IMG/VR virus record: IMGVR_UViG_3300021963_000294
Span: 1 to 38,813 of that record
Strand: one strand, 5' to 3'
Source: a virus
DNA length: 38,813 bases
Positions 11,104 through 38,813 of the stretch are shown here, one piece after another (the first letter of the stretch is position 1; the number at the start of each line of letters is the position of its first letter). Both the position numbers and the translations under genes were made by a program. The notes beneath the pieces are model-generated. The model had not been told where the DNA came from and made no database searches. It was given only the letters and a program-made list of their open reading frames with translations.

Positions 11104-11310
11104 ATGACGCAAGTTGAAAACATCATCGAACGGTTCGGCGGCATGACGGCCTTGGCCCGTGCTCTCGGCCACAAAAACCCCACAACGGTTCAGGGCTGGA
11201 AGGTGCGCGGCATCATCCCGGCGCGGCAGCAACGCGAGTTGCTGGACCTTGCGAAAAGGGCCAACGTGCCGCTGGAACCTGCGGACTTTTTCGCGGACGC
11301 ACGCGGATGA
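11104..11310 (+). CDS. Carph-isopro-type HTH regulator (Cro-like)
   Basis: 68 residues from MTQVENIIERFGGMTAL. The pattern ENIIERFGG-x5-RALGHKNPTTVQGWK-x-RGIIPARQQ matches the small carph-isopro/Cro-like HTH proteins of alphaproteobacteria and their phages, with the recognition helix in NPTTVQGWK. ATG at 11104 preferred; TTG at 11098 would add two residues. Position beside a divergent promoter suggests that it represses one or both early operons. Confidence 0.8.
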   Translation: MTQVENIIERFGGMTALARALGHKNPTTVQGWKVRGIIPARQQRELLDLAKRANVPLEPADFFADARG

Positions 11311-11360
11311 ATACGACGCGCTCTCAGCAAGCGCGGACGCCCGGTCATCGACGGGCACTT

Positions 11361-11382
11361 CCCGGTTCGCCGGGCTTTTCTT
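11361..11382 (+). terminator. Intrinsic terminator after the regulator
   Basis: CCCGG (11361-11365), a TTCG tetraloop and CCGGG (11370-11374), followed by CTTTTCTT. It lies 50 bases after the regulator stop, so rightward transcripts may end here unless antiterminated or restarted. The rest of the 172-base gap (11311-11482) holds the inverted repeat listed next. Confidence 0.6.
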
Positions 11383-11438
11383 CCCATCGCAGGCCCGGCT
11401 CCGTGCGGAACCCCCTCCCGCATTCGTGCTTGCGCGCT

Positions 11439-11474
11439 CCCGAGCTGGTTTTAGTCCCTCTTGGCCAGCTCGGG
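11439..11474 (+). promoter_or_regulatory. Perfect 10-bp inverted repeat upstream of C5 methyltransferase
   Basis: CCCGAGCTGG at 11439-11448 and CCAGCTCGGG at 11465-11474 around a 16-base loop. The right arm runs into the G-rich stretch (11472-11476) that is the only Shine-Dalgarno-like sequence for the ATG at 11483. It could be an RNA hairpin hiding the ribosome site or a DNA operator. Confidence 0.5.
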
Positions 11475-11482
11475 GGCACCCT

Positions 11483-12355
11483 ATGAAGCCGCTGGCGGTA
11501 GATTTATTTTGTGGCCTCGGAGGCTGGACTGACGGCCTGCTCGCCGCTGGATACGACGTGGTGGGCTTCGACATCGAGCAGCACGTCTACGGCGACATGC
11601 GCTATCCGGCGCAGCTCGTGGTGCAGGACGTTCTGACGCTGCACGGCTCGCAGTTCCGCGACGCCGCCCTGATCGTCGCAAGCCCGCCGTGCCAGGAATA
11701 TTCATGGATGGCCATGCCGTGGAAACTGGCGAAAGCCAAGGCTGCCGCGATCCGCGCGGACATGACCGGCGAAAGCCTCGAACGGCTCAACCGGCTGTTC
11801 AACGCCTGCTTCCGCATCCAGGCAGAGGCCAGTCTCGCGGCGGGGCGGCATATCCCGATGGTGGTCGAGAACGTGCGCGGCGCGCAGCCATGGGTCGGAC
11901 GGGCGCGGTGGAACTTCGGCAGCTTCTACCTGTGGGGCGACGTGCCGGCGCTGATGCCGCCCGCCCGCTCGATAAAGAACACTGGCGGTTCATGGTTCAA
12001 CATCGGCGGCCCCGGCCAGGCGGTCACGAACAACAACCCCGTGCACGGCCACAAAGTCCCCGGCTTTCGGTTTGACGGCAGCGGGCGCAGTTTCCAGAGC
12101 GCGAGCGTGGCCGAGCATATCAAGGTGCCGAGCGAAAGCGGGCGGCGCACAGACCCCGGCAAGGGCGCGCGGTTCACGCCGCAGTCCCGCGGCGTCGAGG
12201 CTGGCATCAAGATCGGTGGCGACTGGTTCAGCGATCCGGAAAGCACCTGCCGAAAGCACGGCAGCAAGTCCCCGGCCCGCAAGATGGCCAGCGCCATGAT
12301 CGCCAAAATCCCCGAGCCGCTGAGTCGGCACATCGCCGAGGTCTACCGGCCATGA
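11483..12355 (+). CDS. DNA (cytosine-5) methyltransferase
   Basis: 290 residues. Motif I is AVDLFCGLGGWTDG (residues 5-18), the catalytic SPPCQ has C70, and motif VI is VVENVRGAQPW (128-137). The region after residue 140 holds the target-recognition part and the C-terminal motifs. It transfers a methyl group from S-adenosylmethionine to C5 of cytosine. No partner restriction enzyme is adjacent, so protection from host restriction is the likely role. Start chosen at ATG 11483; a longer in-frame reading runs back through the terminator and regulator. Confidence 0.93.
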   Translation: MKPLAVDLFCGLGGWTDGLLAAGYDVVGFDIEQHVYGDMRYPAQLVVQDVLTLHGSQFRDAALIVASPPCQEYSWMAMPWKLAKAKAAAIRADMTGESLERLNRLFNACFRIQAEASLAAGRHIPMVVENVRGAQPWVGRARWNFGSFYLWGDVPALMPPARSIKNTGGSWFNIGGPGQAVTNNNPVHGHKVPGFRFDGSGRSFQSASVAEHIKVPSESGRRTDPGKGARFTPQSRGVEAGIKIGGDWFSDPESTCRKHGSKSPARKMASAMIAKIPEPLSRHIAEVYRP

Positions 12356-13165: not shown

Positions 13166-13302
13166 CCTACGATCCCCACCTTGACAGCCGCCTGAGCTAC
13201 GAGGCCGCGATTGCAGCCGCCCGCGCCGACTACCTGGCGAACCGCCGCGAGGGCGAGACGGCGGCGCAGTACATCGAGCGCAGACGGAGGGAGCGGGAAT
13301 GA
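13162..13302 (+). CDS. 46-residue protein with RRRRERE tail, cassette copy 1
   Basis: Starts MTYDPHLDSRLSYEAAIAAA; the end REGETAAQYIERRRRERE is shared, with small changes, with the 35-residue protein at 14048. ATGA overlaps on both sides couple it to the upstream HTH gene and the methyltransferase downstream. The paired occurrence before each methyltransferase copy suggests a fixed two-gene unit. Function unknown. Confidence 0.65.
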   Translation: MTYDPHLDSRLSYEAAIAAARADYLANRREGETAAQYIERRRRERE

Positions 13303-13375
13303 GAGAGGAAGTCATCGGCGACTGCCGCCTGATACTGGGCGACTGCATGGCCATCCTGCCGACGCTTGGCAAGGT
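13274..13375 (+). repeat. Left flank of methyltransferase cassette, copy 1
   Basis: 102 bases identical to 14127-14228. They cover the end of the small upstream gene and the first 25 codons of the methyltransferase. Confidence 0.95.
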
Positions 13376-14051
13376 CAGCCACTTTATGACCGATCCGCCA
13401 TTTGAGGCAGAGGCGCACAAAGTCGGCCGTCGCACGCACAAGCAGATCAAGACCGGCGAGTCTGCGGATTTGGACTTCGCCGCGATCACCGAAGATGTGC
13501 GACTGGCGACGGCGCGATTTGCCGTGGAAATGAGCGAAGGCTGGGCCATCGTCTTTTGTCAGGCCGAAGCCGTTGGCGACTGGCGCGATGCTTTCGAGGC
13601 TGCTGGCGGGAAATACAAGCGCCCGATGATCTGGGTGAAGCCGGATTCTGCCCCGCAATTCAACGGCCAGATGCCTGCCATTGGGTACGAGTCTATGCCC
13701 CTGACATGGTGCGGCGAAGGCTGGGCTAGGTGGAACTCGGGCGGCAAGCGTGGGGTCTACACCCACAACTGCAACAGCAATCGACACGGCGGTCATCCGA
13801 CCGAGAAGCCCGTCTCCTTGATGAGCGAGTTGCTGGCTGACTTCACCAATCCCGGCGACCTGATCCTCGATCCATTTATGGGCAGCGGCACCACTTTGGT
13901 TGCGTGCGCTCGCATGGGCCGCTCTGGCATCGGGATCGAACTGGACCCACGTTACTTCGACATCGCCTGCCGCCGCATCGAGGCCGCCTACAAGCAAGGC
14001 GACATGTTCCGCGAGCCGCCGCCAAAGTTCAAGCAGGAGGCGTTTCTGTGA
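13299..14051 (+). CDS. DNA amino-methyltransferase, cassette copy 1
   Basis: 250 residues. Catalytic motif IV is TDPPF (31-35) near the N-terminus and the SAM-binding motif I DPFMGSGTT lies near residue 191, the order of beta-class N6-adenine/N4-cytosine methyltransferases. DPPF is less usual than DPPY. The C-terminus IEAAYKQGDMFREPPPKFKQ is shared with the next methyltransferase although the middle differs, so target specificity probably differs. ATGA with the preceding gene and GTGA with the following one. Confidence 0.9.
   Translation: MREEVIGDCRLILGDCMAILPTLGKVSHFMTDPPFEAEAHKVGRRTHKQIKTGESADLDFAAITEDVRLATARFAVEMSEGWAIVFCQAEAVGDWRDAFEAAGGKYKRPMIWVKPDSAPQFNGQMPAIGYESMPLTWCGEGWARWNSGGKRGVYTHNCNSNRHGGHPTEKPVSLMSELLADFTNPGDLILDPFMGSGTTLVACARMGRSGIGIELDPRYFDIACRRIEAAYKQGDMFREPPPKFKQEAFL
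13965..14040 (+). repeat. Right flank of methyltransferase cassette, copy 1
   Basis: 76 bases matching 14725-14800 with four differences, all at silent third codon positions. Encodes the shared C-terminus of the two methyltransferases and the AGGAGG ribosome site of the next gene. Confidence 0.95.
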
Positions 14052-14155
14052 TCGAGCCGCACCTCCGCCGCTTGTGGGACGCCGTGGCCACGCTGCGCCG
14101 CGAGGGTGAAACCGCCCGTGAATACGTCGAGCGCAGACGGAGGGAGCGGGAATGA
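14048..14155 (+). CDS. 35-residue protein with RRRRERE tail, cassette copy 2
   Basis: GTG start with AGGAGG seven bases upstream; reads VIEPHLRRLWDAVATLRREG and ends YVERRRRERE. The C-terminal half matches the 46-residue protein at 13162; the N-terminal half does not. Overlaps are GTGA and ATGA. It is the second copy of the small partner gene. Confidence 0.6.
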   Translation: MIEPHLRRLWDAVATLRREGETAREYVERRRRERE

Positions 14156-14228
14156 GAGAGGAAGTCATCGGCGACTGCCGCCTGATACTGGGCGACTGCA
14201 TGGCCATCCTGCCGACGCTTGGCAAGGT
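14127..14228 (+). repeat. Left flank of methyltransferase cassette, copy 2
   Basis: Identical to 13274-13375 over 102 bases, offset 853 bases. Confidence 0.95.
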
Positions 14229-14811
14229 GGACGCCGTGATTACCGATCCTCCGTATGGGATCGCGCACGTTTGGAAAGGCGGCTTCGGGCATGGGTGGGG
14301 CAGGGCGAGGGCTGAAGCAGAAGAGCGCAATGAATGGGACGACGCCGCACCGGATGCTGACGCGCTTCAATTGATCCTGTCGAAAGGATCGCAGCACATC
14401 CTGTGGGGTGGCAACTACTTTGCCCTTCCTCCGTCCCGATGCTGGCTGATCTGGAACAAGCCCGAGCGCGGGTTCACTTTGGCCGAAGCCGAGATGGCAT
14501 GGACTGATTTTGATTCCGTGGTGCGCGTGTTTGATGCCCCTCGGTCGGAACCAGACCGCGAACACCCGACGCAAAAGCCCGTCGCGCTTATGGCGTGGTG
14601 CGTCAAGAAAACCAAGGGCATCGTCTGCGATCCGTACATGGGGTCAGGAACGACCGGCGTCGCGTGCGCTCGCATGGGCCGCGAGTTCATCGGGATAGAG
14701 CAAACTCCCCGTTGGTTTAATCTAGCCTGCCGCCGCATCGAGGCCGCTTACAAGCAGGGCGATATGTTCCGCGAGCCGCCGCCCAAGTTCAAGCAGGAGG
14801 CCATGCTGTGA
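14152..14811 (+). CDS. DNA amino-methyltransferase, cassette copy 2
   Basis: 219 residues. The first 26 residues equal those of the upstream copy, then the sequence diverges at once: TDPPY (31-35), ILWGGNYFALPPSRCWLIWN (the WGGNYF type found in many phage N6-adenine methyltransferases), HPTQKP and motif I CDPYMGSGTT near 159-168. The last 20 residues are again shared with copy 1. Probably an N6-adenine methyltransferase of beta class. The same ends with different cores point to exchange of a central cassette. Confidence 0.92.
   Translation: MREEVIGDCRLILGDCMAILPTLGKVDAVITDPPYGIAHVWKGGFGHGWGRARAEAEERNEWDDAAPDADALQLILSKGSQHILWGGNYFALPPSRCWLIWNKPERGFTLAEAEMAWTDFDSVVRVFDAPRSEPDREHPTQKPVALMAWCVKKTKGIVCDPYMGSGTTGVACARMGREFIGIEQTPRWFNLACRRIEAAYKQGDMFREPPPKFKQEAML
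14725..14800 (+). repeat. Right flank of methyltransferase cassette, copy 2
   Basis: Matches 13965-14040 with four silent differences; includes the AGGAGG used by the next small gene. Confidence 0.95.
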
Positions 14812-15486: not shown

Positions 15487-16027
15487 ACTTGGCCGGTTCC
15501 TAAAGGGTGAACACTGGCGCGCGCCTCGGCTGCACTGGGATCGTGAATGGCTTCACCACCAGTACGTCGTGCTTGGCGTATCAACGGGCGATCTGGCCGA
15601 AGAGTGCGAATGCACAGACGCGAACATCCTGCACTGGCTGAAGAAGCACGGCATTCCTAGGCGTACAGTGTCTGCGGCTCGGTCACTGAAGCACTGGGGA
15701 CCGACCGGCGAGGCTAACCCGATGTACGGGAAAACTGGTGCCGCCAATCCCAGGTTCGTGGACGGCAGCAGTCCGGAGCGGCAGAGGCTCTACGCCCAAG
15801 GCGAAGGCCGCGCTTTCATCCGCGATGTGTTGAAGCGGGACGGCTACTGCTGCCGGCGATGCAATGCGCCGAAGTCTGGCAAGCGATCCCTGCACGTTCA
15901 CCACTTGGCACCGTGGGCTGGCAACGAGGCGCTCCGGTTCTCATTGGATAACGCTGCCACGCTCTGTCGCCCGTGCCATCACTGGGTCCACAGCAGAGAA
16001 AATACCGAGGGGGAGTTCCTGTTGTGA
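15476..16027 (+). CDS. HNH homing endonuclease inside methyltransferase gene
   Basis: 183 residues. An HTH-like N-terminal part (STGDLAEECECTDANILHWL, 36-55) is followed by a NUMOD3-like GEANPMYGKTGAANPRF (78-94) and an HNH domain: DGYCCRRC (122-129), LHVHHL (139-144), N159 and CRPCHHWVH (164-172). Such proteins cut DNA at intron-less or intron-containing target sites and spread by homing. The gene overlaps the N-terminal methyltransferase fragment by 11 bases and the C-terminal one by GTGA. Confidence 0.9.
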   Translation: MPDELGRFLKGEHWRAPRLHWDREWLHHQYVVLGVSTGDLAEECECTDANILHWLKKHGIPRRTVSAARSLKHWGPTGEANPMYGKTGAANPRFVDGSSPERQRLYAQGEGRAFIRDVLKRDGYCCRRCNAPKSGKRSLHVHHLAPWAGNEALRFSLDNAATLCRPCHHWVHSRENTEGEFLL

Positions 16028-16863
16028 TCTACCAGAAGTCAGACATTCCCGACGATCTACAGAAGTTCTTCGTGCGCGCCGAGATCGGGCTTGAGCCGAC
16101 GCCCGACGAGTTTATTGCCAAGCTGGTTGCCGTGTTCCGCGAAGTGCGCCGGGTGCTGACCGATGATGGGACTTGCTGGGTGAACATCGGGGATAGCTAT
16201 GCGGCGAACCGTGGCTATCAGGTGCCCGATAGCAAGCACGTTGATGTCGGAAATAGTCGCGGCCAGAAGGCTGCTGAATATGGGCTAAAGCCCAAAGACC
16301 TGATCGGCATCCCATGGATGCTCGCCTTCGCCCTTCGCGCTGACGGCTGGTATCTGCGGCAGGACATCATCTGGCACAAGCCCAACCCGATGCCTGAGAG
16401 CGTCACCGACCGCTGCACCAAGTCGCATGAGTACGTGTTCCTGCTCACCAAGTCGGCGAGGTACTGGTACGACGCGGAGGCGATCAGCGAGCCGCTTCAA
16501 GGGGCGCCCCACGCCCCCGGCAACAAGAAGTTAGACGCCAGCCGCAACGACCGTGACTCCATGGAAAAGGTTCGGGGCGCGAACGGGATGCGCAACCGCC
16601 GCTCTGTATGGCCGATCACCACGCAGCCTTTCAGCGAAGCCCACTTCGCCACGTTCCCGCCTGAACTGCCGGAACTGTGCATCAAGGCTGGCTGCCCCAA
16701 GGGCGGCACCGTGCTTGACCCATTCTTCGGCGCGGGCACCACAGGGCTTGTTGCAGACAGGCTTGGACGGAACGCCATCGGGATTGAACTGAACCCGGAA
16801 TACGCGGCCATGGCGCGCAAGCGCATCCAGGCTGATGCGGGCATGTTTGGGGAGGTTGCGTAA
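16024..16863 (+). CDS. Split DNA methyltransferase, C-terminal fragment
   Basis: 279 residues, GTG start with GGGGGAG eight bases upstream and overlapping the HNH stop. Residues 1-30 (VIYQKSDIPDD ... IGLEPTPDEF) continue the methyltransferase where the N-terminal piece ends. Then FREVRRVLTDDGTCWVNIGD (38-57), IIWHKPNPMPESVTDR (115-130), and SAM motif I LDPFFGAGTTG (231-241). Catalytic TSPPY is only in the other fragment. The separate, well-placed ribosome site suggests that two polypeptides are made and may assemble. Confidence 0.88.
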   Translation: MIYQKSDIPDDLQKFFVRAEIGLEPTPDEFIAKLVAVFREVRRVLTDDGTCWVNIGDSYAANRGYQVPDSKHVDVGNSRGQKAAEYGLKPKDLIGIPWMLAFALRADGWYLRQDIIWHKPNPMPESVTDRCTKSHEYVFLLTKSARYWYDAEAISEPLQGAPHAPGNKKLDASRNDRDSMEKVRGANGMRNRRSVWPITTQPFSEAHFATFPPELPELCIKAGCPKGGTVLDPFFGAGTTGLVADRLGRNAIGIELNPEYAAMARKRIQADAGMFGEVA

Positions 16864-19430: not shown

Positions 19431-20579
19431 ATGCTCCGATCCGCCGCGTTCCTGACTGCCGTTCTGTTCGCCACGCCCGCGCTTGCCGTGGCCGGCGCAG
19501 ACCCGAGCCTGTTCAACTTCTCGACCGTGCACACGGTCACGAACTGCAACGACAGCGGTGCTGGTTCGTTCCGGCAGGCGGTGGAGGGCACCAGCGGCCC
19601 GCGCCGGGTGCAGTTCTCGGTTGCCTGCACCCTGACGCTCCTGACGCCGGTGACGGTCACCAACGGCAGCGTGTGGATCAAGGGCGAGACGGCTCCATCG
19701 CCGGGCTGGGAAATCGTCGGTCATCGGCTGGAGATCAAGAAGGCCACGGTCAAGGTTACGCACATGCGGTTCCGGCCCGGCACCAGCTCCAACCCGTCGC
19801 TACAGGACGCCATATCGGTGACGGGCGCGGCCATCGGCACCGGGCCGTCATCGTGCGCCGGCCAGCGGGACATGGGCAACATCATCCTCGACCACGTGTC
19901 GGCGACCTGGGCGCAGGACGAGAATATCCAGTTGTGGGGCTGCAACATCCACAACGCCACGGTGTCCAACTCGATCATCGCCGAGGGGCTGAAATCGAGC
20001 GGGCACCCGGACGGCGACCATTCCATGTCGCTGATCGTCGGACCCGGCGCGCGTGACGTGCTGGTGCACCGCAACCTGTTCGTGTCGAGCCAGTGGCGCA
20101 ACCCGGTGCTGCACGGCGACAGCACGACGGCGGTGGTGAACAACTGGATACACAACCCGGCGAACCAGAACATCCACGTCTATTCGCACGCCAGCTACAC
20201 GGCTCCGACCAAGGGGGCGATCATCGGCAATCTGATCAGCGCCGGGCCGTCCAGCCGGGTGGACCAGAAGTTCGGCAACGGATCGGCGAACACGGTCAAT
20301 TCCGGCTCGACGTTCTACCTGGACGACAACGTGCAGGAGGGCGAGATTTCGACGCTGAACGTGACGGCGGCGTCCGGGGCATCACTGGTGAGCACCAATC
20401 CCGTTCCCATCGGCTTCACGCCGATCAGCGCCTATGACGTGGAGGCTGCGCTGGTGAAGTGCGCCAATCCCTCTGCAAGCGCCGTAGGGCCGGTCTACAA
20501 GGACGCGACGGACCTTCGGCTGATTGCCGAGGCGTGTGCGCGCACTGGCTCGCTGAAGAACGCGCCCGTTTCGGAATGA
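19431..20579 (+). CDS. Secreted pectate-lyase-like beta-helix protein
   Basis: 382 residues. An N-terminal signal peptide (MLRSAAFLTAVLFATPALAV, probable cut near 'ALAVAGA') is followed by a right-handed beta-helix with the pectate-lyase signature: DHVSATWAQDENIQLWG, then TVSNSIIAEGLKSSGHPDGD, then LVHRNLFVSSQWRNPVL and VVNNWIHNPANQNIHVY. Such proteins cleave acidic polysaccharide in many phages. A classical signal peptide is unusual for a virion depolymerase, so it may be secreted by the infected cell. First gene of the late block, with GGAGG before the ATG. Confidence 0.8.
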   Translation: MLRSAAFLTAVLFATPALAVAGADPSLFNFSTVHTVTNCNDSGAGSFRQAVEGTSGPRRVQFSVACTLTLLTPVTVTNGSVWIKGETAPSPGWEIVGHRLEIKKATVKVTHMRFRPGTSSNPSLQDAISVTGAAIGTGPSSCAGQRDMGNIILDHVSATWAQDENIQLWGCNIHNATVSNSIIAEGLKSSGHPDGDHSMSLIVGPGARDVLVHRNLFVSSQWRNPVLHGDSTTAVVNNWIHNPANQNIHVYSHASYTAPTKGAIIGNLISAGPSSRVDQKFGNGSANTVNSGSTFYLDDNVQEGEISTLNVTAASGASLVSTNPVPIGFTPISAYDVEAALVKCANPSASAVGPVYKDATDLRLIAEACARTGSLKNAPVSE

Positions 20580-29345: not shown

Positions 29346-29759
29346 ATGGCCACTGACACCGCTGGCACCAGCGCCCGCCTTCTGCCCTTCCAGGCGGTCC
29401 ACTACATCCGGAAGGACATCACCTACGCCGATGACGGGGATACTGTCGTGGTCGGCGTCCTGCCGGCTGGCGCGGTCATCATCAAGGCCGCGTCTGGCGT
29501 CAACATCTCGACGGCGTTTGACGGCAACTCGTCCAACGTCCTCGATATCGGCTACTCGACCGACAGTGGCACGAACAACCTCGCCACTCAGCTTGCGCTG
29601 GGCACGGCCACGTTCGTTCCGCTCGATGAGGCGACGGGCGGCAACTACATGGGCGCGACCACCGACCGGACCATATCGGCATTGGTGACTTCGACCGCAT
29701 CGGCGACAGCCGGCGTCGGTCAGATCATCATCGCCTATATCCCGGCGGCTCGTACCTGA
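29346..29759 (+). CDS. Small beta-rich head protein, paralogue 1
   Basis: 137 residues from MATDTAGTSARLLPFQAVHY. The pattern 'ARLLPFQAVHYIRKDITY... GAVIIKAASGVNISTAFDGNSSNV...' recurs in the next two genes, so the three are paralogues. Small, beta-rich and directly after the capsid gene, they are plausible decoration or head-fibre proteins (inference). Confidence 0.65.
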   Translation: MATDTAGTSARLLPFQAVHYIRKDITYADDGDTVVVGVLPAGAVIIKAASGVNISTAFDGNSSNVLDIGYSTDSGTNNLATQLALGTATFVPLDEATGGNYMGATTDRTISALVTSTASATAGVGQIIIAYIPAART

Positions 29760-29765
29760 TCGACC

Positions 29766-29789
29766 GGGGGAGGGCTTCGGCTCTCCCCC
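29766..29789 (+). terminator. Strong UUCG-capped hairpin after capsid genes
   Basis: A 10-bp stem (one G-U) with a TTCG loop: GGGGGAGGGC, TTCG, GCTCTCCCCC. No T-run follows, so a stabiliser or processing/partial terminator that sets capsid mRNA abundance is likelier than a full stop. Confidence 0.5.
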
Positions 29790-29811
29790 ATCACCATCAT
29801 GGAGAGATAAC

Positions 29812-30219
29812 ATGGCCACAGACACAACGGGCAGCGCCGCCCGGCTCGCACCATATCAGGTGACGCATTACGTGCGCGGCTCCGTGGCCTTCAACACGGC
29901 GCATATCAGCGAGGCGGCTGCGGTCGCCATCGGCATCATTCCCTCGGGCGCGCTGGTGCTGCGAACGCATGTCGCCGTCACCGCCGCCTTCAACGCGGCG
30001 ACAACCAACGTGCTTATCGTCGGCACGTCCTCCGATGACGACTTGTTCGTCGATGCGGATGACGTGGACGAAACCGCCATCGCGGTAACATCCGGCATCA
30101 CCACGGGCGTCGGCGTGCTGGCGGCTGACACCAAGGTCTATGTCAAGTACAGCCAGACCGGCACCGCCGCGACGGCGGGCGCGGCGACCATCGTCATCGA
30201 ATACATTCCGGGAGCCTGA
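29812..30219 (+). CDS. Small beta-rich head protein, paralogue 2
   Basis: 135 residues from MATDTTGSAARLAPYQVTHY, closest to paralogue 1 at the N-terminus (MATDT-x-G) and to paralogue 3 at the C-terminus (KYSQTGTAATAGAATIVIEY). The middle holds TAAFNAATTNVLIVGTSSDD. GGAGAG precedes its ATG after the strong hairpin, so its expression could differ from that of the capsid gene. Confidence 0.65.
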   Translation: MATDTTGSAARLAPYQVTHYVRGSVAFNTAHISEAAAVAIGIIPSGALVLRTHVAVTAAFNAATTNVLIVGTSSDDDLFVDADDVDETAIAVTSGITTGVGVLAADTKVYVKYSQTGTAATAGAATIVIEYIPGA

Positions 30220-30221
30220 TC

Positions 30222-30617
30222 ATGCCATTCCAGCCAGTCGTAGAGGCCCGCAAGGCTCTGGTGCAGTTCATCCAGGGGTCCATTGCGTTCGACACCGCCA
30301 GCGCGGCCACGGGCGTATCCATGGGCACGCTGCCGGCCAATTCGTACATCGTTGACATCGTGGTCAAGGTCACGACTGCGTTCAACGCGGGGACCACCAA
30401 CGTCCTCAAGGTCGGCAAGACCGGCACGCTCGGGGCCTATGTCGATACCGCCGACGTGGACGAGACATCGGCGACGGCGCAGCGCGTGACCACCGGCATC
30501 GGCTCCATCGGGGCGACCGCCGTTCCGGTGCTGATTTCCTATGCCCAGACCGGCACCGCGGCGACCACGGGCGCGGCCACCGTGACCATCACCTACATCA
30601 ACACCGGCGCTGTCTAA
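30222..30617 (+). CDS. Small beta-rich head protein, paralogue 3
   Basis: 131 residues from MPFQPVVEARKALVQFIQGS. Shares TTAFNAGTTNVLKVGKTG and YAQTGTAATTGAATVTITYI with paralogue 2, but lacks the MATDT opening. Overlaps the adaptor gene by one base (TAATG). Confidence 0.65.
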   Translation: MPFQPVVEARKALVQFIQGSIAFDTASAATGVSMGTLPANSYIVDIVVKVTTAFNAGTTNVLKVGKTGTLGAYVDTADVDETSATAQRVTTGIGSIGATAVPVLISYAQTGTAATTGAATVTITYINTGAV

Positions 30618-31258
30618 TGAGCACCTATGGCGACATGAAAACCCGGATTGCGGACGAACTGTCCCGGTCGGACCTGTCGTCGCAGATCGCGCTCGAGGTA
30701 TTGTCGGCGATCTCGCATTACGAAAACCAGCGGTGGTCATGGAGTGAAATCCGCGCCACCGCCAGCACCACGGCGAACGTGGCCTTTGTCGCCGTGCCGT
30801 CCAACTTCCTCGACGAGGACTCGATGAAGCTGACGGTGAACGGCGACTACCAGCTGTTGAGCCGGGTGTCGTACGAATACATCGACCGCATCGACAGCGG
30901 CGACCAGACGGGGGAGCCGTTCTACTACGCCTTCTATGCCGACCAGATACGGCTCTACCCGATCCCGGATGCGACATACACGCTGACCTTTTCCTACATC
31001 GGCTCGCAGACCGCCCTGTCTGCCGATGCCGATACGAACGACTGGACCAACGAGGCGGAGACGCTGATCCGGGCGCGGGCCAAGGCGGCGGTGAAGATGA
31101 ACTACCTCAACGACGCTGGGGCGATTGCCGAGGCGCAGGCCTACGCGCTGAACCGGCTCGACTTCCTGTGCACGGCGGAAGCGTCGGCGTTCAACTCGCT
31201 CAGGCGCAAGGCCGACATGCGGACCGCCACCGGGACAATCCAGGCGTATTGCATATGA
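30617..31258 (+). CDS. Head-to-tail adaptor protein
   Basis: 213 residues. An N-terminal helix (MKTRIADELSRSDLSSQIAL) leads to SAISHYENQRWSWSEIRATA (about residues 31-50), then beta strands with IRLYPIPDATYTLTFSYIG and a helical C-terminus. This is the usual pattern of phage adaptor proteins that sit under the portal. ATGA-coupled to the stopper gene. Confidence 0.75.
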   Translation: MSTYGDMKTRIADELSRSDLSSQIALEVLSAISHYENQRWSWSEIRATASTTANVAFVAVPSNFLDEDSMKLTVNGDYQLLSRVSYEYIDRIDSGDQTGEPFYYAFYADQIRLYPIPDATYTLTFSYIGSQTALSADADTNDWTNEAETLIRARAKAAVKMNYLNDAGAIAEAQAYALNRLDFLCTAEASAFNSLRRKADMRTATGTIQAYCI

Positions 31259-32718
31259 AGCAAACCCTCGCCTTCGCCGATTACATGCCGGACCAGCCCG
31301 ACTTCAGCAATCCGGGCGTGCCGCTGGCGACCAACGTCATTCCGAAGGCGCGGACATTCGGCCCGCTGGCGGCGATTGCCGGGTATACTTCCGCGCTGGC
31401 CGCTGCCCCGAAGGGCGGATACAGCTTCCAGCGCAACGGCACCAACTACGTGTTCGCCGGCACGGCCACGGCGCTCTACAAGCTGGAGGCGGCAAAGACA
31501 TGGGAGACGGTAACAAGATCGTCAGGCGTGGCCTACGCGACCGCTACCGACGACGCATGGCGGTTCGTCGATTACGGAACCTATGTGGTGGCGGTCAACG
31601 GCACCGATGCGACGCAGTATTACGAGGTCGGCGTTTCGACCGATTTCGAGCCGCTGTCCGGGTCGCCGCCGATTGCCCATCATATCGCCATCGTCAAGCA
31701 GTTCCTCGTCATGGGCAACCTCTCGACCGACAGCACCAAGGTCCAGTGGAGCGCGCAAGGCTCGCCAACCGGCTGGACGGCGGGCGTGGGGCTTTCAGAC
31801 AGCCAGATACTCCCGGACGGTGGCGAGGTGGTCGGCCTGACGGGCGGCGAATACGGGCTGGTGTTCCAGCGCCGGGCGATACAGAGAATGGACTACCAGC
31901 CGGGCAGCCCGCTGATCTTCTCGTTCTCGCCCATCGTCTCTGGGGAAAACGCGGTCGGTTGCCTGGCAGCCGGGTCCATCGTCGAGCATCGCGGCGGGGT
32001 GTATTTCATATCCGACAACGGCTTCGAGTATTGCGACGGCGTTTCGGTGAGGAACATCGGCACCCAGCGGATCAATGATTTCTTCCTCACCGATCTTGAC
32101 CGGGCGCTGACATACCTGGTGACGGCAGCGGTCGATCCGATCCTCGGCTTTATCATGTGGTCCTATCCCGGACAGGGGAATACCGGGTCGGCCAATCACC
32201 AGATCATCTACAACCCGTTCGTGGACAAGTGGTCCTACGCCGAACAGACCGCCCAGTTCCTGATGCAGGGCTATTCGTTCGGCTACACGCTGGACGACCT
32301 TGACGCGATCACCACCAGTCTGGACCTGCTGCCGTACTCGCTCGATAGCGTCTACTGGCAGGCCGGCGCGGTGCTTCTCGGGGCCTTTGACAGCAACAAC
32401 AAGTTCGGCTTCTTCAACGGCCTTGCCCTGGAGGCGACCATCGAAACGACGGAATGGGGCGGCGACAGCACGGCGCTGGTGACGGCTGCCAGGCCTTTGG
32501 TTGCTGGTGTGTCCACCTGTGAAATCGAGATCGGCTCACGCTACCGGCAATCCGACGATCCGACCTATTCGACCGCCGCGGCGATGGCGACGGTCGGCAA
32601 GTGCTTCATGCGCTCCAACGGCAGATACCACCGGGCGCGGCTGACGATCCCGTCGCAAACCTTCTGGAGCCATGCCCAGGGCGTGGACATCGAATACGAA
32701 TACACGGGTGACCGATGA
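31255..32718 (+). CDS. Tail stopper / packaged-DNA stabilisation (gp10-like)
   Basis: 487 residues from ATG 31255, overlapping the adaptor stop by ATGA. The beta-propeller-like sequence has repeated 'NGTNYVFAGTATALYKLE' and 'VDYGTYVVAVNGTDATQYYE' blades, then KQFLVMGNLSTDSTKVQWSA, IYNPFVDKWSYAEQTAQFLM and others, as in P22 gp10-type plug proteins. It closes the portal-adaptor channel and docks the tail needle or fibres. Confidence 0.75.
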   Translation: MKQTLAFADYMPDQPDFSNPGVPLATNVIPKARTFGPLAAIAGYTSALAAAPKGGYSFQRNGTNYVFAGTATALYKLEAAKTWETVTRSSGVAYATATDDAWRFVDYGTYVVAVNGTDATQYYEVGVSTDFEPLSGSPPIAHHIAIVKQFLVMGNLSTDSTKVQWSAQGSPTGWTAGVGLSDSQILPDGGEVVGLTGGEYGLVFQRRAIQRMDYQPGSPLIFSFSPIVSGENAVGCLAAGSIVEHRGGVYFISDNGFEYCDGVSVRNIGTQRINDFFLTDLDRALTYLVTAAVDPILGFIMWSYPGQGNTGSANHQIIYNPFVDKWSYAEQTAQFLMQGYSFGYTLDDLDAITTSLDLLPYSLDSVYWQAGAVLLGAFDSNNKFGFFNGLALEATIETTEWGGDSTALVTAARPLVAGVSTCEIEIGSRYRQSDDPTYSTAAAMATVGKCFMRSNGRYHRARLTIPSQTFWSHAQGVDIEYEYTGDR

Positions 32719-33095
32719 TTGCCTCGCGCTTCGACACATCTCCCGGCTCGCTGGCGCGGTGGGTGTCATCGGTGGCCAACGACATCAACAACCTGCATCC
32801 GAGGGCGCGGGGCCGGTTCTGGAAAACCATCACCGGGGCGACTTCGGTCAACGAGAACTGGACGTTCATCCTGTGCGATGCCTCGGGGGGCGCGGTGACG
32901 CCGACCCTGCCGACCGGCATGCCGAAGGACCATGAGATTGTGTTTCAGGACAGCGGGTCGGCTGGAACCAACAACATCACCATCACCAGGGGCGGGACGG
33001 ACACCATCAACGGGGCCAATACGCTGGTAATCAGCACCAACTATGGACGCAAGACGCTGATCAGCGACGGCGCGGGGAAGTGGTACGCGGCATGA
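32715..33095 (+). CDS. Small beta-rich tail or fibre protein
   Basis: 126 residues from MIASRFDTSPGSLARWVSSV, ATGA-coupled on both sides. N-terminal helix, then a beta pattern (TGATSVNENWTFILCDASGG; ITRGGTDTINGANTLVISTN; TLISDGAGKWYAA) typical of short phage fibre tips. Likely virion-associated; function not defined. Confidence 0.6.
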   Translation: MIASRFDTSPGSLARWVSSVANDINNLHPRARGRFWKTITGATSVNENWTFILCDASGGAVTPTLPTGMPKDHEIVFQDSGSAGTNNITITRGGTDTINGANTLVISTNYGRKTLISDGAGKWYAA

Positions 33096-33634
33096 GGAAT
33101 TTCTTGCGGCTGGCGGAAGGCGTCGATGTCCTCCCGTTGGTTCATTCGCTGCACCGGCAGCCGGAACTGTGGAAAAAGGATTGCCGCACCAAGCTGGACA
33201 TCTTCAAGGATACCGAGGAGATCATCCTCCGGTTTTTCGAGTACGAGGACGACGCCGATGACCCGGCTGACATGATGACGCTGCATTTCCTGCACACATG
33301 GGACTGCCTGCCGGAAGTGAAGCCTATCGTGCTGGACCTGATGCGGCGTGTCGGGGCGTATTCGCTGGAACGGTCATTCATCTCCCGGCTTCCGCCTGGC
33401 GGGCGCATCCTGCCCCATGCGGACAGTCGCGGACCCTACGCCAATCTGCCGGACATCGCCCGTTATCATGTCGTGCTGCAAGGTCTGCCCGGCTCCAACT
33501 TCCGCTGCGGCGAGGAGTGGGTGCACATGAAAACCGGCGACGTGTGGTCGTTCAACGCAAGGGAAGAGCACGAGGTTGTCAACAATTCGGCGGATGACCG
33601 GATACACCTTCTGGTGGACATGAGGCTGATGTGA
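33092..33634 (+). CDS. Aspartyl/asparaginyl hydroxylase-like 2OG oxygenase
   Basis: 180 residues from MRNFLRLAEGVDVLPL. The catalytic core is ERSFISRLPPGGRILPHADS (residues 93-112, iron ligands H109 and D111), followed by ARYHVVLQGLPGSNFRCGEE, then MKTGDVWSFNAREEHEVVNN with H160 and R170 for 2-oxoglutarate. This is the double-stranded beta-helix of Asp/Asn beta-hydroxylases, which modify proteins. ATGA start and GTGA end tie it to structural and acetyltransferase genes, so its target may be a phage virion protein (inference). Confidence 0.8.
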   Translation: MRNFLRLAEGVDVLPLVHSLHRQPELWKKDCRTKLDIFKDTEEIILRFFEYEDDADDPADMMTLHFLHTWDCLPEVKPIVLDLMRRVGAYSLERSFISRLPPGGRILPHADSRGPYANLPDIARYHVVLQGLPGSNFRCGEEWVHMKTGDVWSFNAREEHEVVNNSADDRIHLLVDMRLM

Positions 33635-34086
33635 TCACGGCACAGGTCGAGAGCATGTTCGACGCGCTCGACGAGGCGTTGCCGATGCTGCGCCAGCATT
33701 ACGAGGAACTGGCGCTCAACAAGGACAAGGTGCCGCTCGATCCCGATTGGGAAACCTATCGCCGGATGGAAGCGCAAGGGTCGATCCTTTGCGTCACCCT
33801 GCGGCAGAATGGCCGGCTGGTGGGCTATTACACCGGGTTCGTGGTGCCGGACCTGCACTACAAAACGTGCCTGTCGCTGAAGATGGATATTTTCTGGACG
33901 CATCCCGACGTGCGCGGCGGGACGGCGGGGCTGAGGCTGTTCCGGGCGGTGAAACAGGAAGCCAGGCGGCGGGGCGTCCAGCGGATATTCCACGGCACCA
34001 AGCTGCACAAGGATGCGTCACGGCTGTTCCAGTCCCTCGGGATGGAAGCGGTCGAAACCTACTATTCTGAATGGATCGGAGACTGA
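33631..34086 (+). CDS. GNAT-family acetyltransferase
   Basis: 151 residues, GTG start overlapping the hydroxylase stop. Motif A region: SLKMDIFWTHPDVRGGTAGL (acetyl-CoA-binding loop 'VRGGTAGLRLF'), motif B: HKDASRLFQSLGMEAVETYY. Residues 50-72 (ILCVTLRQNGRLVGYYTGFV) are the usual central strands. It transfers an acetyl group to an amine. Coupling to the hydroxylase inside the tail block suggests joint action on one protein or on a host target. Confidence 0.85.
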   Translation: MITAQVESMFDALDEALPMLRQHYEELALNKDKVPLDPDWETYRRMEAQGSILCVTLRQNGRLVGYYTGFVVPDLHYKTCLSLKMDIFWTHPDVRGGTAGLRLFRAVKQEARRRGVQRIFHGTKLHKDASRLFQSLGMEAVETYYSEWIGD

Positions 34087-34087
34087 C

Positions 34088-35350
34088 ATGGTGACAGCCG
34101 CAGTCGTTGGCGCAGCCGCCGTTGCCGGAGGTGTTTCCGGGGCGCAGGGCAAGAAAACCAAGACGTCGAGCACGAGCGTTGCCGAGCCGTACAAGCCTAC
34201 GGTTCCGTACCTGAACGACATCCTTGGCAAGTCGCAGGAACTCTACAACGCCAATCCCAATCCGTCCTATGGTCCTTCGGCCATCCCCAATCCGTCATCC
34301 CAGACGCTCGCGGCCCAGAAGCAGATCACGGCGTTGTCGAAGGCACCGACCGGCCTGATCCCGGCGGCGCAGACGGCGGTGAAAAACACCATTGCCGGCA
34401 ACTACCTGAATTCGGCTCCGGGCACCGCTCCGCTGACCACCGTGGCCACCGGAGGCGCGACCAATCCGGCGACGGCGCGCACCGCGCAACTGGCGCAGGG
34501 CTACACCGACCCGGCGATCGGCTTCAACAATGCACTCATGCGGCAGGGCTACAACGACCCGTCGCAGCCGCTCTACCGCCAGATCGCCGGGCTTCGCGCC
34601 GGCGACAATTCATCGGGCCTGTTCGGGCAGGCGTCGGGGATGCAGTCGCAGTCGCTCGGCAACCCGTATTACACCGCCGCTGGCGGGCAGACGGCGGGGC
34701 CGGGGGCTACCGGGCTTTACGGCCAACTGGCGGGCACACAGGCCGGGCAGGGGGCTTCAAGCCTCTACGGCGACCTGTCGGGCATGCGGGCGGGACCGGG
34801 CGGCACGGGGCTGTACAACCAGCTTGGCGGCATGACCGCCGACACCAGCACGCTGGGCCAGTACGGCCAGTTGTCCGGGATGCGCGGCAATGCCGACGCG
34901 CTCGGCCAGTACGCCAATGTTGGCGGGATGCGTGCCGACATGTCTGGCATGGGGGACTATGCCAATCTGGGCGGCATGCGGGCTGATATGGGCGGCATGA
35001 CCGACTTCGCCAATCTCGGGGGCATGCGTGCCGACATGTCGGGCATGGGGGACTATGCCAACATCGGCGGCATGCGGGCAACCGGCAATCCCGACAATGG
35101 AGTGTATTCCGGCCTTGCCAATGGAACCAATCCCAATGCCCAGGTGTTCGGCGACTTCGCCCAAGGCAACTTCAACCAGGGCGCGAACACCTACGAGCAA
35201 CTGGCCAACCGGCAGTACACCGACCCGTCGAGCGCGGCGATGCGGACTATCTGGTGCCGTTCGCCAATGGCTCGCTGTCGAATGTGGACAGCAATCCCTA
35301 CCTTCAAGGCATGCTGGACATTCAATCGAGGCGCATCGCCGACAGCGTGA
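34088..35350 (+). CDS. Repeat-rich internal virion protein, N-terminal frame
   Basis: Reads 420 residues to a stop at 35350, but homologous-looking sequence ends near residue 385 (YTDPSSAAM at 35242); the last 35 residues (RTIWCRSPMARCRMW...) look like out-of-frame sequence. Starts MVTAAVVGAAAVAGGVSGAQ, hydrophobic and Ala/Gly-rich, then Pro/Asn-rich. From 34781 six 16-residue repeats (GMRADMSGMGDYANLG type) follow. Moving to the -1 frame at 35242 gives SSAAM-ADYLVPFANGSLSN, which continues without interruption to 37044. Together they would make about 985 residues. Probably an ejection protein. Confidence 0.75.
   Translation: MVTAAVVGAAAVAGGVSGAQGKKTKTSSTSVAEPYKPTVPYLNDILGKSQELYNANPNPSYGPSAIPNPSSQTLAAQKQITALSKAPTGLIPAAQTAVKNTIAGNYLNSAPGTAPLTTVATGGATNPATARTAQLAQGYTDPAIGFNNALMRQGYNDPSQPLYRQIAGLRAGDNSSGLFGQASGMQSQSLGNPYYTAAGGQTAGPGATGLYGQLAGTQAGQGASSLYGDLSGMRAGPGGTGLYNQLGGMTADTSTLGQYGQLSGMRGNADALGQYANVGGMRADMSGMGDYANLGGMRADMGGMTDFANLGGMRADMSGMGDYANIGGMRATGNPDNGVYSGLANGTNPNAQVFGDFAQGNFNQGANTYEQLANRQYTDPSSAAMRTIWCRSPMARCRMWTAIPTFKACWTFNRGASPTA
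34781..35068 (+). repeat. Six 48-bp (16-residue) tandem repeats
   Basis: In-frame units beginning at 34781, 34829, 34877, 34925, 34973 and 35021, all starting Gly-Met-(R/T) and ending in (Y/F)-x-(N/Q)-(L/V/I)-(G/S). The last three are most alike. A partial seventh (GMRATG) follows. Confidence 0.9.
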
Positions 35351-37044
35351 ATTCCATGTTCGGCGCGGGCAACCGCTACGGCTCCGGGGCCAATCAGGAC
35401 TTGCTGGGGCGGAACATCGGTGACGCGGCCACTCAGATGCTCGGCACGGCCTACGAGAACAACATGGGCCGGCAGCTTGGCGCGGCGGGGCAGTTGGCGG
35501 GCATTGGCGAGAACCGGGCCTCGCGCGATCTTCAGTCGATGGCGACCGGCGCGGCGGGCATGGAATCGCAGAGGCTGAACAATCTTGGGCAACGGTTCCA
35601 GGGGGCACAGGCGGGTGTCAATTCGGCGCTCGCTGGGGCGCAGGGGCTAACCAATCAGGCGCAGTTTGCCGATCAGTACGGCCTCGCCGCCGCTCAGGCC
35701 GGGGCCGCTGGCCAGCAGAACATCCGGCAGTTCGGCGACCAGTACGCCGCTCAGAACGCATTGGCGGGCGCTCAGGGGCAGCAGAACATCCGCCAGTTTG
35801 GGGATCAATACGCCGCTCAGAACGCTCTCGCGGGCGCTCAGGGCCAGCAGGGTATCAGGCAGTTCGGCGACCAGTTCGGCGCTCAGAACGCTCTCGCCGG
35901 CGCTCAGGGCACGGCTGGCGTCAACCAGTTCCTCGACCAGTACGCGGCACAGAATGTCGGGCAGGGCGCGGCTGGCATGGCTGGAATCCGTCAGTTCGCC
36001 GACCAGTTCGGGGCCAGCAATCTCGGGCAGGCAGCGGCGGGCATCCAGAACCAGGGCCAGTTCTCCGACCAGTACGCGGCGGGCAATCTCGCCCAAGGGG
36101 CTTCGGGTATCCAGAACCAGTCGCAGTTCCGCGACCAGTTTGGGGCCAGCAACCTTGCACAAGGGGCGGCTGGTATCCAGAACCAGGGCCAGTTCGGCGA
36201 CCAGTTCAACCAGAACGCCTTGCTCAACGCCGGGCAGGGCTTGCAGGCGTCGGGCCAGAACGCCGATGCGTTCCGGTTGCAGGCGCTGCTCTCGGGTGCA
36301 CAGGGCTTGCAAGGGAACCAGCAGTTCGGCGACCAGTACGCCATGAGCGCGCTCGGGCAGGGTGCCGCGGGCCTGGGAACCGGCGCGGCGAACCAGATAC
36401 AGGCGCAGCAGGGCGCGGCCAATTCACTCACCAGCGCGCTCGGCAACCAGTTCCAGTCGGCCTTGGCCGGAACGGGACTGCAAGCCCAGGTCGGCCAGCA
36501 GAACACCAGCAACGTCATGGCGGCGTCCAACTCGCTCAACGACGCCTATTCGCAAGAGCGGGAGAACATGCTCAACGCCACCAACAACGCGGCGGCTCTC
36601 GATCAGGCGCGGTACATGGACAGCCAGATGCTGGCCCAGGTCGGCGCGCAGCGGGATGCTTTGGCGGCGGCGAAGGCGGCGGAAGCGCAGGCCGCATATC
36701 AGTACGAGCAGAACCAGGCACCTTATCAGGCGCTCAACCAGTATCTCAGCACGGTCGGCAGCATCGCCGGGCTTGGCGGCACGACCACATTCAACGGCGT
36801 GTCCAAGCAGGGCGGCGGCACCATGGCTGGCCTTGCCGGCGCATTGGGAGCCGGGGCGTCGGCGATGGGCGGCATGAGCACCGGCATGGGCATGATGGGG
36901 TCGCAGGGCGGCTACAGTTCCGGGTTCAGCCAGTTCATGCCGCAGATGAGCGGGCAGTCCAGCGCCGGATATAACCCGTTCTTTCTACAGAACTACGGGT
37001 CTATGATCCCGATGACTTCCTACAGCAGCGACAGGCCATGGTGA
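35254..37044 (+). CDS. Repeat-rich internal virion protein, C-terminal frame
   Basis: The frame first offers a GTG at 35254 without a ribosome site, but in-frame codons before it (ADYL) fit a -1 continuation from 35242. About 600 residues: an Asn/Ala/Gly-rich N-terminus, eight 22-residue Gln-rich repeats (AGAQGQQNIRQFGDQYAAQN type), a long helical Ala/Gln region (LNDAYSQERENMLNATNNAA; DALAAAKAAEAQAAYQYEQN) and a Gly/Met-rich tail (GASAMGGMSTGMGMMG). Long helical, low-complexity domains are usual for podovirus internal proteins. Confidence 0.75.
   Translation: MPFANGSLSNVDSNPYLQGMLDIQSRRIADSVNSMFGAGNRYGSGANQDLLGRNIGDAATQMLGTAYENNMGRQLGAAGQLAGIGENRASRDLQSMATGAAGMESQRLNNLGQRFQGAQAGVNSALAGAQGLTNQAQFADQYGLAAAQAGAAGQQNIRQFGDQYAAQNALAGAQGQQNIRQFGDQYAAQNALAGAQGQQGIRQFGDQFGAQNALAGAQGTAGVNQFLDQYAAQNVGQGAAGMAGIRQFADQFGASNLGQAAAGIQNQGQFSDQYAAGNLAQGASGIQNQSQFRDQFGASNLAQGAAGIQNQGQFGDQFNQNALLNAGQGLQASGQNADAFRLQALLSGAQGLQGNQQFGDQYAMSALGQGAAGLGTGAANQIQAQQGAANSLTSALGNQFQSALAGTGLQAQVGQQNTSNVMAASNSLNDAYSQERENMLNATNNAAALDQARYMDSQMLAQVGAQRDALAAAKAAEAQAAYQYEQNQAPYQALNQYLSTVGSIAGLGGTTTFNGVSKQGGGTMAGLAGALGAGASAMGGMSTGMGMMGSQGGYSSGFSQFMPQMSGQSSAGYNPFFLQNYGSMIPMTSYSSDRPW
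35698..36225 (+). repeat. Eight 66-bp (22-residue) tandem repeats
   Basis: Units begin every 66 bases from 35698 to 36160, e.g. AGAQGQQNIRQFGDQYAAQN. The pattern Q-F-x-D-Q-[YF] is constant; the Q-N-[AL] end varies. Copies after 36160 degenerate toward 36360. Adjacent copies are similar enough for recombination or misassembly. Confidence 0.9.
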
Positions 37045-37048
37045 TCCA

Positions 37049-38314
37049 ATGAACCCCTTCATGTATCCGCAATCCGCCTTCGCCATGTTCGGCCGGCAGC
37101 AGCCGCAAATCCCGCAGCAGGCCGGCATGGACCCGCAAACCATGATGCTGTTGATGCAACAGGAACAGCAGCAGCAGGAACAGCAGGCCATGCCGCAGCT
37201 TCCGCGGCAGGCCGCGCAATACGACCCCAACGAGCCGATGCGCGCGCCGTTCGGCCTCAAGATGACCCGTGGGCAGGCCGACTACATGAAAGACCTCGGG
37301 GCGGGCATCGGGCAGGCATTCGACAATCCCGTGGTGCAGGCGCTTTCCTACGCCAACCAGAGGAAGGACCAGCGCCGAGGCTATGACGCGGAAGCCGAGC
37401 AGAAGCGGTTCGAGAACGAACTCAAGCTGCGGGAATTGAGCAACGAGGAGAAGAAGGCCAATTCGCCGAAATGGCAGCTTGGCGCGATGTACGACGACAG
37501 CGGGCGTGAACAGAAGATCTTCTACGACGAGCGCGACCCGTCCAACTTCAGGATCCACGGCGGGACGAAAAAACCCGAAGTCGGGGCGCTGTACAAGATC
37601 GTCGGCAAGGACGGGCAGGTGGTCTACGAAAGCGCGGAGAACGCACAGGGCGCGACGCCGTATGAGAAGCCGGATGATTTCGGTTTCAGCGTCCAGTCCC
37701 CGGACGGCACCGTGATCAGCTACGGCAAGGGCGGCTCCCCCATTCAGAAGCCCACAGCCAACGACCTGGAAAAGAAGATCGTTCAGGGCGGCGAGATGAT
37801 GGGGCGGCTGCGCGACATGAACAGCCGCTTCAATGAGCAATATCTGACCTACCAGGGACAGGCCGACAACTGGTTCAACAACATGAAGGAAAAGGCCGGG
37901 ATCGACCTTGGGCCGGACGAACAGCAGAAGGTCGCGGAATATTCGGCTTTCCAGCGCGACGTGACCAATAACCTGTCTCTCTACCTGAACCAGTTGTCGG
38001 GTGCCGCGATTTCCCCGGCGGAAGCGGAGCGCATCGGCAAAACCCTGCCAGCCATGGAGGATGGTCCAACCAAGTTCCGGTCAAAGATGGGCGCAACTAT
38101 CCGCGACCTGTCGAAGGCGCAGGCACGGGCCAAGTGGGCGTTGCAGAACGGCGTTGGTCAAAACCCGTGGGAGGCCGACGCCAAGTTCAACGAGAGCGTC
38201 CAGCAGCGCGGCGATGAACTGGCGCAGCGGATCAGGCAGCGAAGCCCGAAAGCCACCGACGAGGAAATCAAGCGGGCGGTGGCGAACCAACTCAAGATGG
38301 AGTTCGGATTTTGA
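37049..38314 (+). CDS. Internal virion protein, Gln-rich N-terminus
   Basis: 421 residues. The first 55 residues are extremely Gln/Met/Pro-rich (MMLLMQQEQQQQEQQAMPQL), then ANQRKDQRRGYDAEAEQKRF (coiled coil) and, after a beta-rich centre, AAISPAEAERIGKTLPAMED and LSKAQARAKWALQNG, a helical domain seen in phage internal proteins. The gene ends four bases into the next one (TTGA). Likely co-ejected with the DNA; enzymatic motifs are absent. Confidence 0.7.
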   Translation: MNPFMYPQSAFAMFGRQQPQIPQQAGMDPQTMMLLMQQEQQQQEQQAMPQLPRQAAQYDPNEPMRAPFGLKMTRGQADYMKDLGAGIGQAFDNPVVQALSYANQRKDQRRGYDAEAEQKRFENELKLRELSNEEKKANSPKWQLGAMYDDSGREQKIFYDERDPSNFRIHGGTKKPEVGALYKIVGKDGQVVYESAENAQGATPYEKPDDFGFSVQSPDGTVISYGKGGSPIQKPTANDLEKKIVQGGEMMGRLRDMNSRFNEQYLTYQGQADNWFNNMKEKAGIDLGPDEQQKVAEYSAFQRDVTNNLSLYLNQLSGAAISPAEAERIGKTLPAMEDGPTKFRSKMGATIRDLSKAQARAKWALQNGVGQNPWEADAKFNESVQQRGDELAQRIRQRSPKATDEEIKRAVANQLKMEFGF

Positions 38315-38813
38315 CCAACTGGCTGGATATCGCAACCGAACCGGACAAGCTGGATAAGCCGCCGAAACTGGATTGGGTGGACGCGGCCACGACCATGCCG
38401 GAAACGCCGGACTTCAACCCGCCGTCCGCTGGAACGGTCGTTGGCGAGATGCAGCGCGCTCGGCAGGCCAACATCCCGGAAACCGGCATGCTCGAGGGCA
38501 TCGGCAACTTCTTCACCGGAGAAAACCGCAAGACGCCGGAAAGCCGCCAGTATCCCGAATTTTCCAGCATGACCGACGGGATGAAAGGCGATCTGGTCCC
38601 GTCCCTGAAAGCGGCGGCTGGCATGTTCCTGTCGTCATCCGATCCGCAGCGGGTGGACATTCTCAAGAAGCAGTTCCCCGAACTGGGCTTCGACGTGGAC
38701 AGCAAGGGCAACGTCATCATCGAACACCCGGAACAGGGCAGGTTCATGCTGAACAAGCCCGGCGCGTCGGGCCGCGACGTGCTGGAAACTGCCGAGGGCA
38801 TTATCCCCTACTA
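38311..38813 (+). CDS. Internal virion protein, N-terminal part (continues at 1)
   Basis: Starts with TTG at 38311, overlapping the previous stop (TTGA); reads TNWLDIATEPDKLDKPPKLD, then a Pro-rich segment and helices. The frame is open to the window's end and continues in frame at base 1 via the 137-base overlap, giving about 691 residues in all. No other start with a better ribosome site is visible. A GGA-rich stretch (agatggagttcgga) precedes the TTG. Confidence 0.7.
   Translation, partial: MTNWLDIATEPDKLDKPPKLDWVDAATTMPETPDFNPPSAGTVVGEMQRARQANIPETGMLEGIGNFFTGENRKTPESRQYPEFSSMTDGMKGDLVPSLKAAAGMFLSSSDPQRVDILKKQFPELGFDVDSKGNVIIEHPEQGRFMLNKPGASGRDVLETAEGIIPY
38677..38813. repeat. Terminal redundancy, right copy
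   Basis: Same 137 bases as 1-137 with two mismatches (38683 and 38687). The copy here, reading PELGFDV, is probably the correct one, because errors cluster at contig starts. Confidence 0.95.

Follow-up and report, generated by a model that had tools for sequence, protein, structure and literature searches.

The window analysed here, the 38,813-nucleotide stretch of IMG/VR virus record IMGVR_UViG_3300021963_000294, has ends that share 137 nucleotides (1-137 versus 38677-38813) with 98.5% identity and 2 mismatches, so that the record probably covers the whole genome, either circular or terminally redundant, with slight variation in the population. Pfam and PHROG assignments point to a podovirus-like phage whose portal is P22-type and whose adaptor is SU10-type, with a virion protein in the place of gp10. 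Its late genes are ordered as adaptor, head-closure protein at the gp10 position, small fibre-like gene, hydroxylase, GNAT acetyltransferase and ejection proteins, as follows.

30617..31258, + strand: SU10-type adaptor (head-tail), first gene of the overlapping late chain (PF24175, E=4.1e-20)
31255..32718, + strand: virion structural protein at the head-closure or P22 gp10-type DNA-stabilisation position (phrog_3287, E=7.7e-71)
32715..33095, + strand: small fibre-like protein, 126 aa (weak assignment by PHROG and Pfam)
33092..33634, + strand: 2OG-Fe(II) hydroxylase, 180 aa (PF05118, conserved triad, AlphaFold model, PDB fold match)
33631..34086, + strand: GNAT acetyltransferase, 151 aa (PF00583, AlphaFold model, viral fold match)
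34088..35350, + strand: N-terminal part of the first ejection (internal virion) protein, with Gly/Met-rich repeats (position and MVTAAVVGAAAVAGG N-terminus)
35254..37044, + strand: remaining part of the repeat-rich ejection protein, read in a different frame (frame analysis; phrog_4287, DNA ejection, E=7e-4)
37049..38314, + strand: next internal-virion-type protein (position only)

ATGA overlaps join the adaptor to the closure gene, the closure gene to the fibre-like gene and the fibre-like gene to the hydroxylase gene, the hydroxylase/GNAT junction is a GTGA overlap of 4 nucleotides, in agreement with the overlap read in an initial annotation of this sequence, and the first ejection gene begins 1 nucleotide past the end of the GNAT gene. 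Given its gene position, the product of 31255..32718 would act in head closure or DNA stabilisation. The same annotation had located the two enzymes between fibre and ejection protein genes; the downstream half of this placement holds by position, while the upstream gene owes the name fibre to weak tail/baseplate PHROG matches (2e-4 to 2e-3). The best PHROG match of this upstream gene is phrog_31104 (function not known; 2.4e-7), and its match to T4_gp9_10_N (0.004) falls under the Pfam cutoff. An apparent single-base indel near 35240, with no obvious slippery site, breaks the reading frame of the repeat-rich ejection protein at 34088-37044; this region probably encodes one protein of ~980 aa, and the frame break may be an assembly error or a true frameshift.

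Several features elsewhere in the window were recorded. Past the major capsid gene, 29346-30617 encodes three tandem small beta-rich proteins (131-137 aa) that are apparently paralogous and possibly represent decoration proteins. Two tandem N6/N4 DNA methylase genes (13299-14051 and 14152-14811) have a common 106-bp start (99% identity) and resemble each other again at their ends (83%), with unlike cores in between, a pattern that looks like the product of recombination. Close to them are a third N6/N4 methylase gene (15973-16863) and a gene for a C5 cytosine methylase (11159-12355). A protein of Ala/Gly/Tyr-rich repeats of ~11 residues (AxxAYGEAxxxA) is encoded on the minus strand at 10056-10487, and 19431-20579 encodes a secreted-looking protein with an apparent signal peptide that is pectate-lyase-like by eye and had no Pfam match at 1e-3.

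Folds and catalytic residues of the hydroxylase and the GNAT

The hydroxylase reading frame runs from an ATG at 33092 to a stop at 33634, and its product passes the curated PF05118 cutoff (E=2.6e-14; 53.8 bits versus 22.6). Its translation places H109, D111, H160 and R170 at the numbers given in the initial annotation, with H109/D111/H160 forming the iron facial triad and R170 binding 2OG, as in the proline hydroxylases. H109, D111, H160 and N164 are kept in all 174 distinct hydroxylases compared, and R170 in 173 of them. The AlphaFold model (pLDDT 93.7) has L-proline cis-4-hydroxylase 4P7W as its top PDB fold match by Foldseek (E 1.6e-9, TM 0.70), and the same enzyme is also the top profile match. 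With 4P7W and proline 3-hydroxylase 1E5R the phage protein has in common the fold and the HxD...H plus Arg active site, but it is shorter (180 aa versus about 290) and, unlike them, is paired with a GNAT among morphogenesis genes. Human AspH belongs to the same Pfam family, PF05118, and shares the jelly-roll core; however, in AspH the Asp of HxD is missing and TPR repeats are present, whereas the phage hydroxylase is a single domain with the full triad. An AspH-type two-His (HxG) iron site was therefore rejected, because Asp111 is invariant and AspH chains lack Asp at that column. Because AspH is also a weaker match than L-proline cis-4-hydroxylase, the term Asp/Asn hydroxylase names the family and predicts no substrate. 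Thus, the earlier description as Asp/Asn hydroxylase-like stands for the Pfam family and the four residues, while the triad is of the cis-proline hydroxylase type and not that of AspH.

The GNAT reading frame starts with GTG at 33631 and stops at 34086, and the protein passes the PF00583 cutoff (E=3.8e-8; 34.1 bits versus 20.7) with an AlphaFold pLDDT of 96.7. Residues conserved in its family are H23, E26, Y66, H76, D86, R95 and K124. In the acetyl-CoA motif A (Q/R-x-x-G-x-G/A), R95 is found in 133 of 137 sequences and G/A100 in 129 of 137, while Gly98 appears in just 20 of 137. With motif A non-canonical at one position, the GNAT is likely to be enzymatically active, though this is less than certain. 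Combined, the computational results show that the hydroxylase and the GNAT possess intact enzyme folds with conserved catalytic residues.

The best viral fold match of the GNAT is VpV262 ORFS of Zobellviridae, and by profile it is closest to the Zobellviridae GP100 and VpV262 GNATs; the best PDB profile match of its family is N-alpha-acetyltransferase 30 (E=2e-4). The Zobellviridae GNATs (VpV262 ORFS, GP100 and those of Vibrio phages) have in common with the window GNAT both the fold and a position between tail and internal virion genes, and in the Autographiviridae phage vB_PaeM-G11 the GNAT ORF39 sits between gp12 and gp14 (PMC10142737). By contrast with the window GNAT, these Zobellviridae GNATs and ORF39 stand alone, with no partner hydroxylase.

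Co-inheritance of the two genes

The initial annotation had called the two genes coupled and had proposed that gene pairs be compared in other phages. In IMG/VR the GNAT was present at 79 of the 80 hydroxylase loci retrieved, the contig of the sole exception ending 415 nucleotides downstream, and the hydroxylase at 77 of the 79 GNAT loci retrieved, rates that are inflated because loci were ranked by similarity and cover the closest relatives only. The GNAT loci were retrieved with an alignment as query; a scan with a single GNAT sequence as query gave no matches. A 4-nucleotide overlap was the commonest hydroxylase-GNAT spacing among the hydroxylase loci. The pair was also found in 8 of 8 close relatives within bacterial genome assemblies (loci L171-L178, from Massilia, Paraburkholderia, Cupriavidus, Janthinobacterium and two MAG contigs), and the isolated Pseudomonas phage PfAn1 and Limnohabitans phage DC33 both have it; the DC33 hydroxylase has been listed as an auxiliary gene (PMC12195039). 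Among farther hydroxylase homologues in bacterial genomes (L179–L199), no such GNAT was found close by. Sequence distances of hydroxylases and GNATs were correlated across 81 loci (r=0.45, Mantel p<0.0005, a statistic that ignores phylogeny), and the partial correlation given the ejection gene was still 0.39.

That the pair, its order and its close junction recur in divergent phages with near-invariant catalytic residues places the arrangement beyond chance. We consider it real, as far as sequence comparison can tell, that the two genes constitute a late cassette, probably translationally coupled, that is nearly always co-inherited among close relatives, so that the coupling proposed earlier is borne out by these loci, by the assembly relatives, and by PfAn1 and DC33. 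A linkage of hydroxylase and GNAT was not described in the open-licence papers searched.

A gene slot upstream of the ejection gene and its occupants

Among the relatives, the gene that immediately follows the pair is an ejection gene of the P22 gp7 type. An ejection-family gene was next downstream at 144 of 159 pair loci, with another 7 loci having no room for one, and this family corresponds to phrog_598, which contains P22 gp7. The window's own ejection protein gave no match to the gp7 profile, and 34088..35350 had no PHROG or Pfam match of its own, while its N-terminus (MVTAAVVGAAAVAGG) is as in relatives. P22 gp7 is itself known to be processed after translation: its record (L332:1370-2059) notes that the host protease OpdA removes the N-terminal 20 residues.

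Exchange of the genes upstream was seen in Rhodoferax phage P26218: its ejection protein and the one from a phage carrying the pair (L005) are 63-67% identical. In P26218, the pair's slot before this closely related ejection protein is occupied by gp30 (phrog_34170), a single chain in which a cupin stands for the hydroxylase and is fused to a SET domain standing for the GNAT. A SET domain is normally a protein-lysine methyltransferase. PF00856 (SET) was found in 17 of 17 members of this cupin-SET family (best 1.7e-9, the P26218 member just 0.015), and MLL-type methyltransferases were matched by profile (2.8e-8); the cupin call on the N-terminal domain comes from sequence reading and PHA00672-type annotation, with no Pfam match. 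Proteins of this phrog_34170 family, with their cupin-like N-terminus and SET domain, lie directly before an ejection gene (L200:6009-6884, L201:4356-5240 and IMG/VR loci L203-L272), which places a phage-encoded SET domain among morphogenesis genes. The pair and the cupin/SET family were mutually exclusive, with co-occurrences of 0/159 and 0/67.

A slot census anchored on the P26218 ejection gene, with single proteins as queries, yielded ~25 readable slots, which by hand count with redundant sequences retained held 11 cupin-SET, 5 cupin, 2 hydroxylase plus GNAT, 2 clear GNAT, 3 weak GNAT-like, 1 DUF6445 and 1 small gene with no assignment. The cupin stood alone in Vibrio, Shewanella and Thalassomonas phages, several of whose records read short tail fibre protein, so that a structural role is possible for some occupants. 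The DUF6445 protein, alone in its slot (L288:4307-4942), has HxD-type motifs and is possibly another 2OG oxygenase. A slot protein of another phage weakly matched DUF2824 (0.0025) and acetyltransferase phrog_1249 (0.006). Taken together, the other enzyme-like genes in the same position suggest that enzymes which would finish a virion protein have a fixed place here. The component families are known. The conserved pair, the fixed slot and the cupin–SET replacement are undescribed in the open-licence literature searched, where papers on SET or cupin genes in the pre-ejection slot and on P22 gene 14 likewise gave no account of the linkage.

The nature of these occupants also bears on whether the two enzymes might instead act on small molecules, the hydroxylase taking free proline or some other metabolite as its substrate and the GNAT then acetylating the hydroxylated product. 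The closest solved relatives of the hydroxylase are indeed free L-proline cis-4- and cis-3-hydroxylases; however, the pair sits inside the morphogenesis chain, no other biosynthetic gene recurs beside it, and a SET domain as replacement speaks against a small-molecule reaction, making this explanation the most improbable of those considered.

The same map slot is occupied in well-studied phages, gene 14 lying directly before gene 7 in P22 and gene 13 directly before gene 14 in T7, and T7 gp13 (PF11090) and P22 gp14 (PF11039) are similar in size to the window GNAT. To our knowledge, no enzyme activity has been assigned to either protein. Homology of the GNAT to T7 gp13 was rejected on non-significant hmmsearch and hhalign results and no PF11090 match, and homology to P22 gp14 (PF11039, DUF2824) on the lack of a significant score. 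The slot proteins could be non-enzymatic chaperones or scaffolds with incidental enzyme folds, given that Pfam terms T7 gp13 a probable scaffold protein, that P22 gene 14 is annotated as head morphogenesis, and that the gp13 homologue of the T7-like phage phiPsa17 is absent from the reported virion proteins (PMC4517105). By contrast, a scaffold would have no need for the catalytic residues held constant in 174 hydroxylases, and the sequence dissimilarity of the GNAT to both proteins argues in the same direction; a scaffold role is thus very unlikely.

Candidate substrates of the cassette

With both proteins predicted to be enzymes, we weighed a host-directed takeover, in which the GNAT, and with it the hydroxylase, would modify host proteins late in infection. 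LUZ19 Rac (gp28), also a phage GNAT, has such a host-directed effect by triggering cleavage of the RNA polymerase alpha subunit (PMC7552054), and phage 2OG oxygenases are mostly annotated as auxiliary genes (PMC12195039, PMC11288001). However, the Rac gene is located elsewhere, ahead of the structural genes and adjacent to the gene for the phage RNA polymerase, whereas the pair is locked in the late morphogenesis chain. Moreover, enzymes of other types take over the slot with the ejection gene kept in place, which is against a host target, and we regard a host-directed role as unlikely.

Among virion proteins, the substrate could lie upstream, namely the fibre-like protein or a beta protein of ~111 aa. 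The fibre-like gene overlaps the hydroxylase gene by ATGA, and at many pair loci, as well as in cupin/SET phages, a member of the ~111-aa family comes just before the enzyme genes. By contrast, the upstream neighbour is variable and belongs to another family in the window, while the downstream ejection family is near-constant, which favours the ejection protein over the fibre as the substrate and leaves an upstream tail or fibre target quite unlikely. The initial annotation had named the neighbouring fibre or the repeat protein as possible targets; neighbour conservation points more to the latter, the ejection protein, than to the former. Its broader proposal of late, virion-directed modifiers gains circumstantial support from a slot locked before the ejection gene into which other enzyme-like genes swap.

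Features of the ejection protein were compared with slot content. Gly and Pro are the most conserved residues of the family; an invariant Lys, Asp or Asn was sought as a target in the aligned ejection proteins and none was found, the best Lys column reaching 87%, with one pair locus having no Lys there. With no invariant modifiable residue, the ejection protein stays an inferred substrate. Its N-terminus is MV at nearly all pair loci (MVA at 119 of 151, mostly MVAAA) and MS at 24 of 25 cupin/SET loci, a split seen even among related ejection proteins. Phylogeny confounds this contrast, and so does the ATGA overlap of the cupin/SET phages, in which the second codon must start with A. An N-terminus that tracks slot content would fit an N-terminal acetyltransferase. 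The ejection family also exists in phages that do not carry the pair, so that the fold itself can do without modification.

The explanation that we tentatively favour, at a probability of roughly 0.45, is that a late, translationally coupled two-enzyme cassette fills a fixed modifier slot of short-tailed phages, between the head-closure and fibre genes and the first ejection gene, and that both enzymes modify one virion protein post-translationally during its synthesis and assembly, the neighbouring ejection protein being the likeliest candidate. The GNAT would probably acetylate an amino group, which might be the N-terminal one, while the hydroxylase would hydroxylate a side chain, with the modification tuning assembly or ejection and not metabolism. 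A wider generalisation appears doubtful: short-tailed phages may share a slot of exchangeable modifiers that mature the ejection protein (hydroxylase plus acetyltransferase, cupin plus SET, or a lone GNAT), of which T7 gp13 and P22 gp14 would be diverged members and with which the ejection N-terminus would co-evolve.

If true, the ejection proteins that build the phage DNA channel would be enzymatically matured, and T7 gene 13 and P22 gene 14 would gain a testable biochemical role. Many phage hydroxylase, GNAT and SET genes now called auxiliary would then have a protein-level reason, and phages would provide cases of paired hydroxylation and acetylation on structural proteins. Because the slot is exchangeable, such isolated phages as PfAn1, DC33 and P26218 would allow a direct test of the question.
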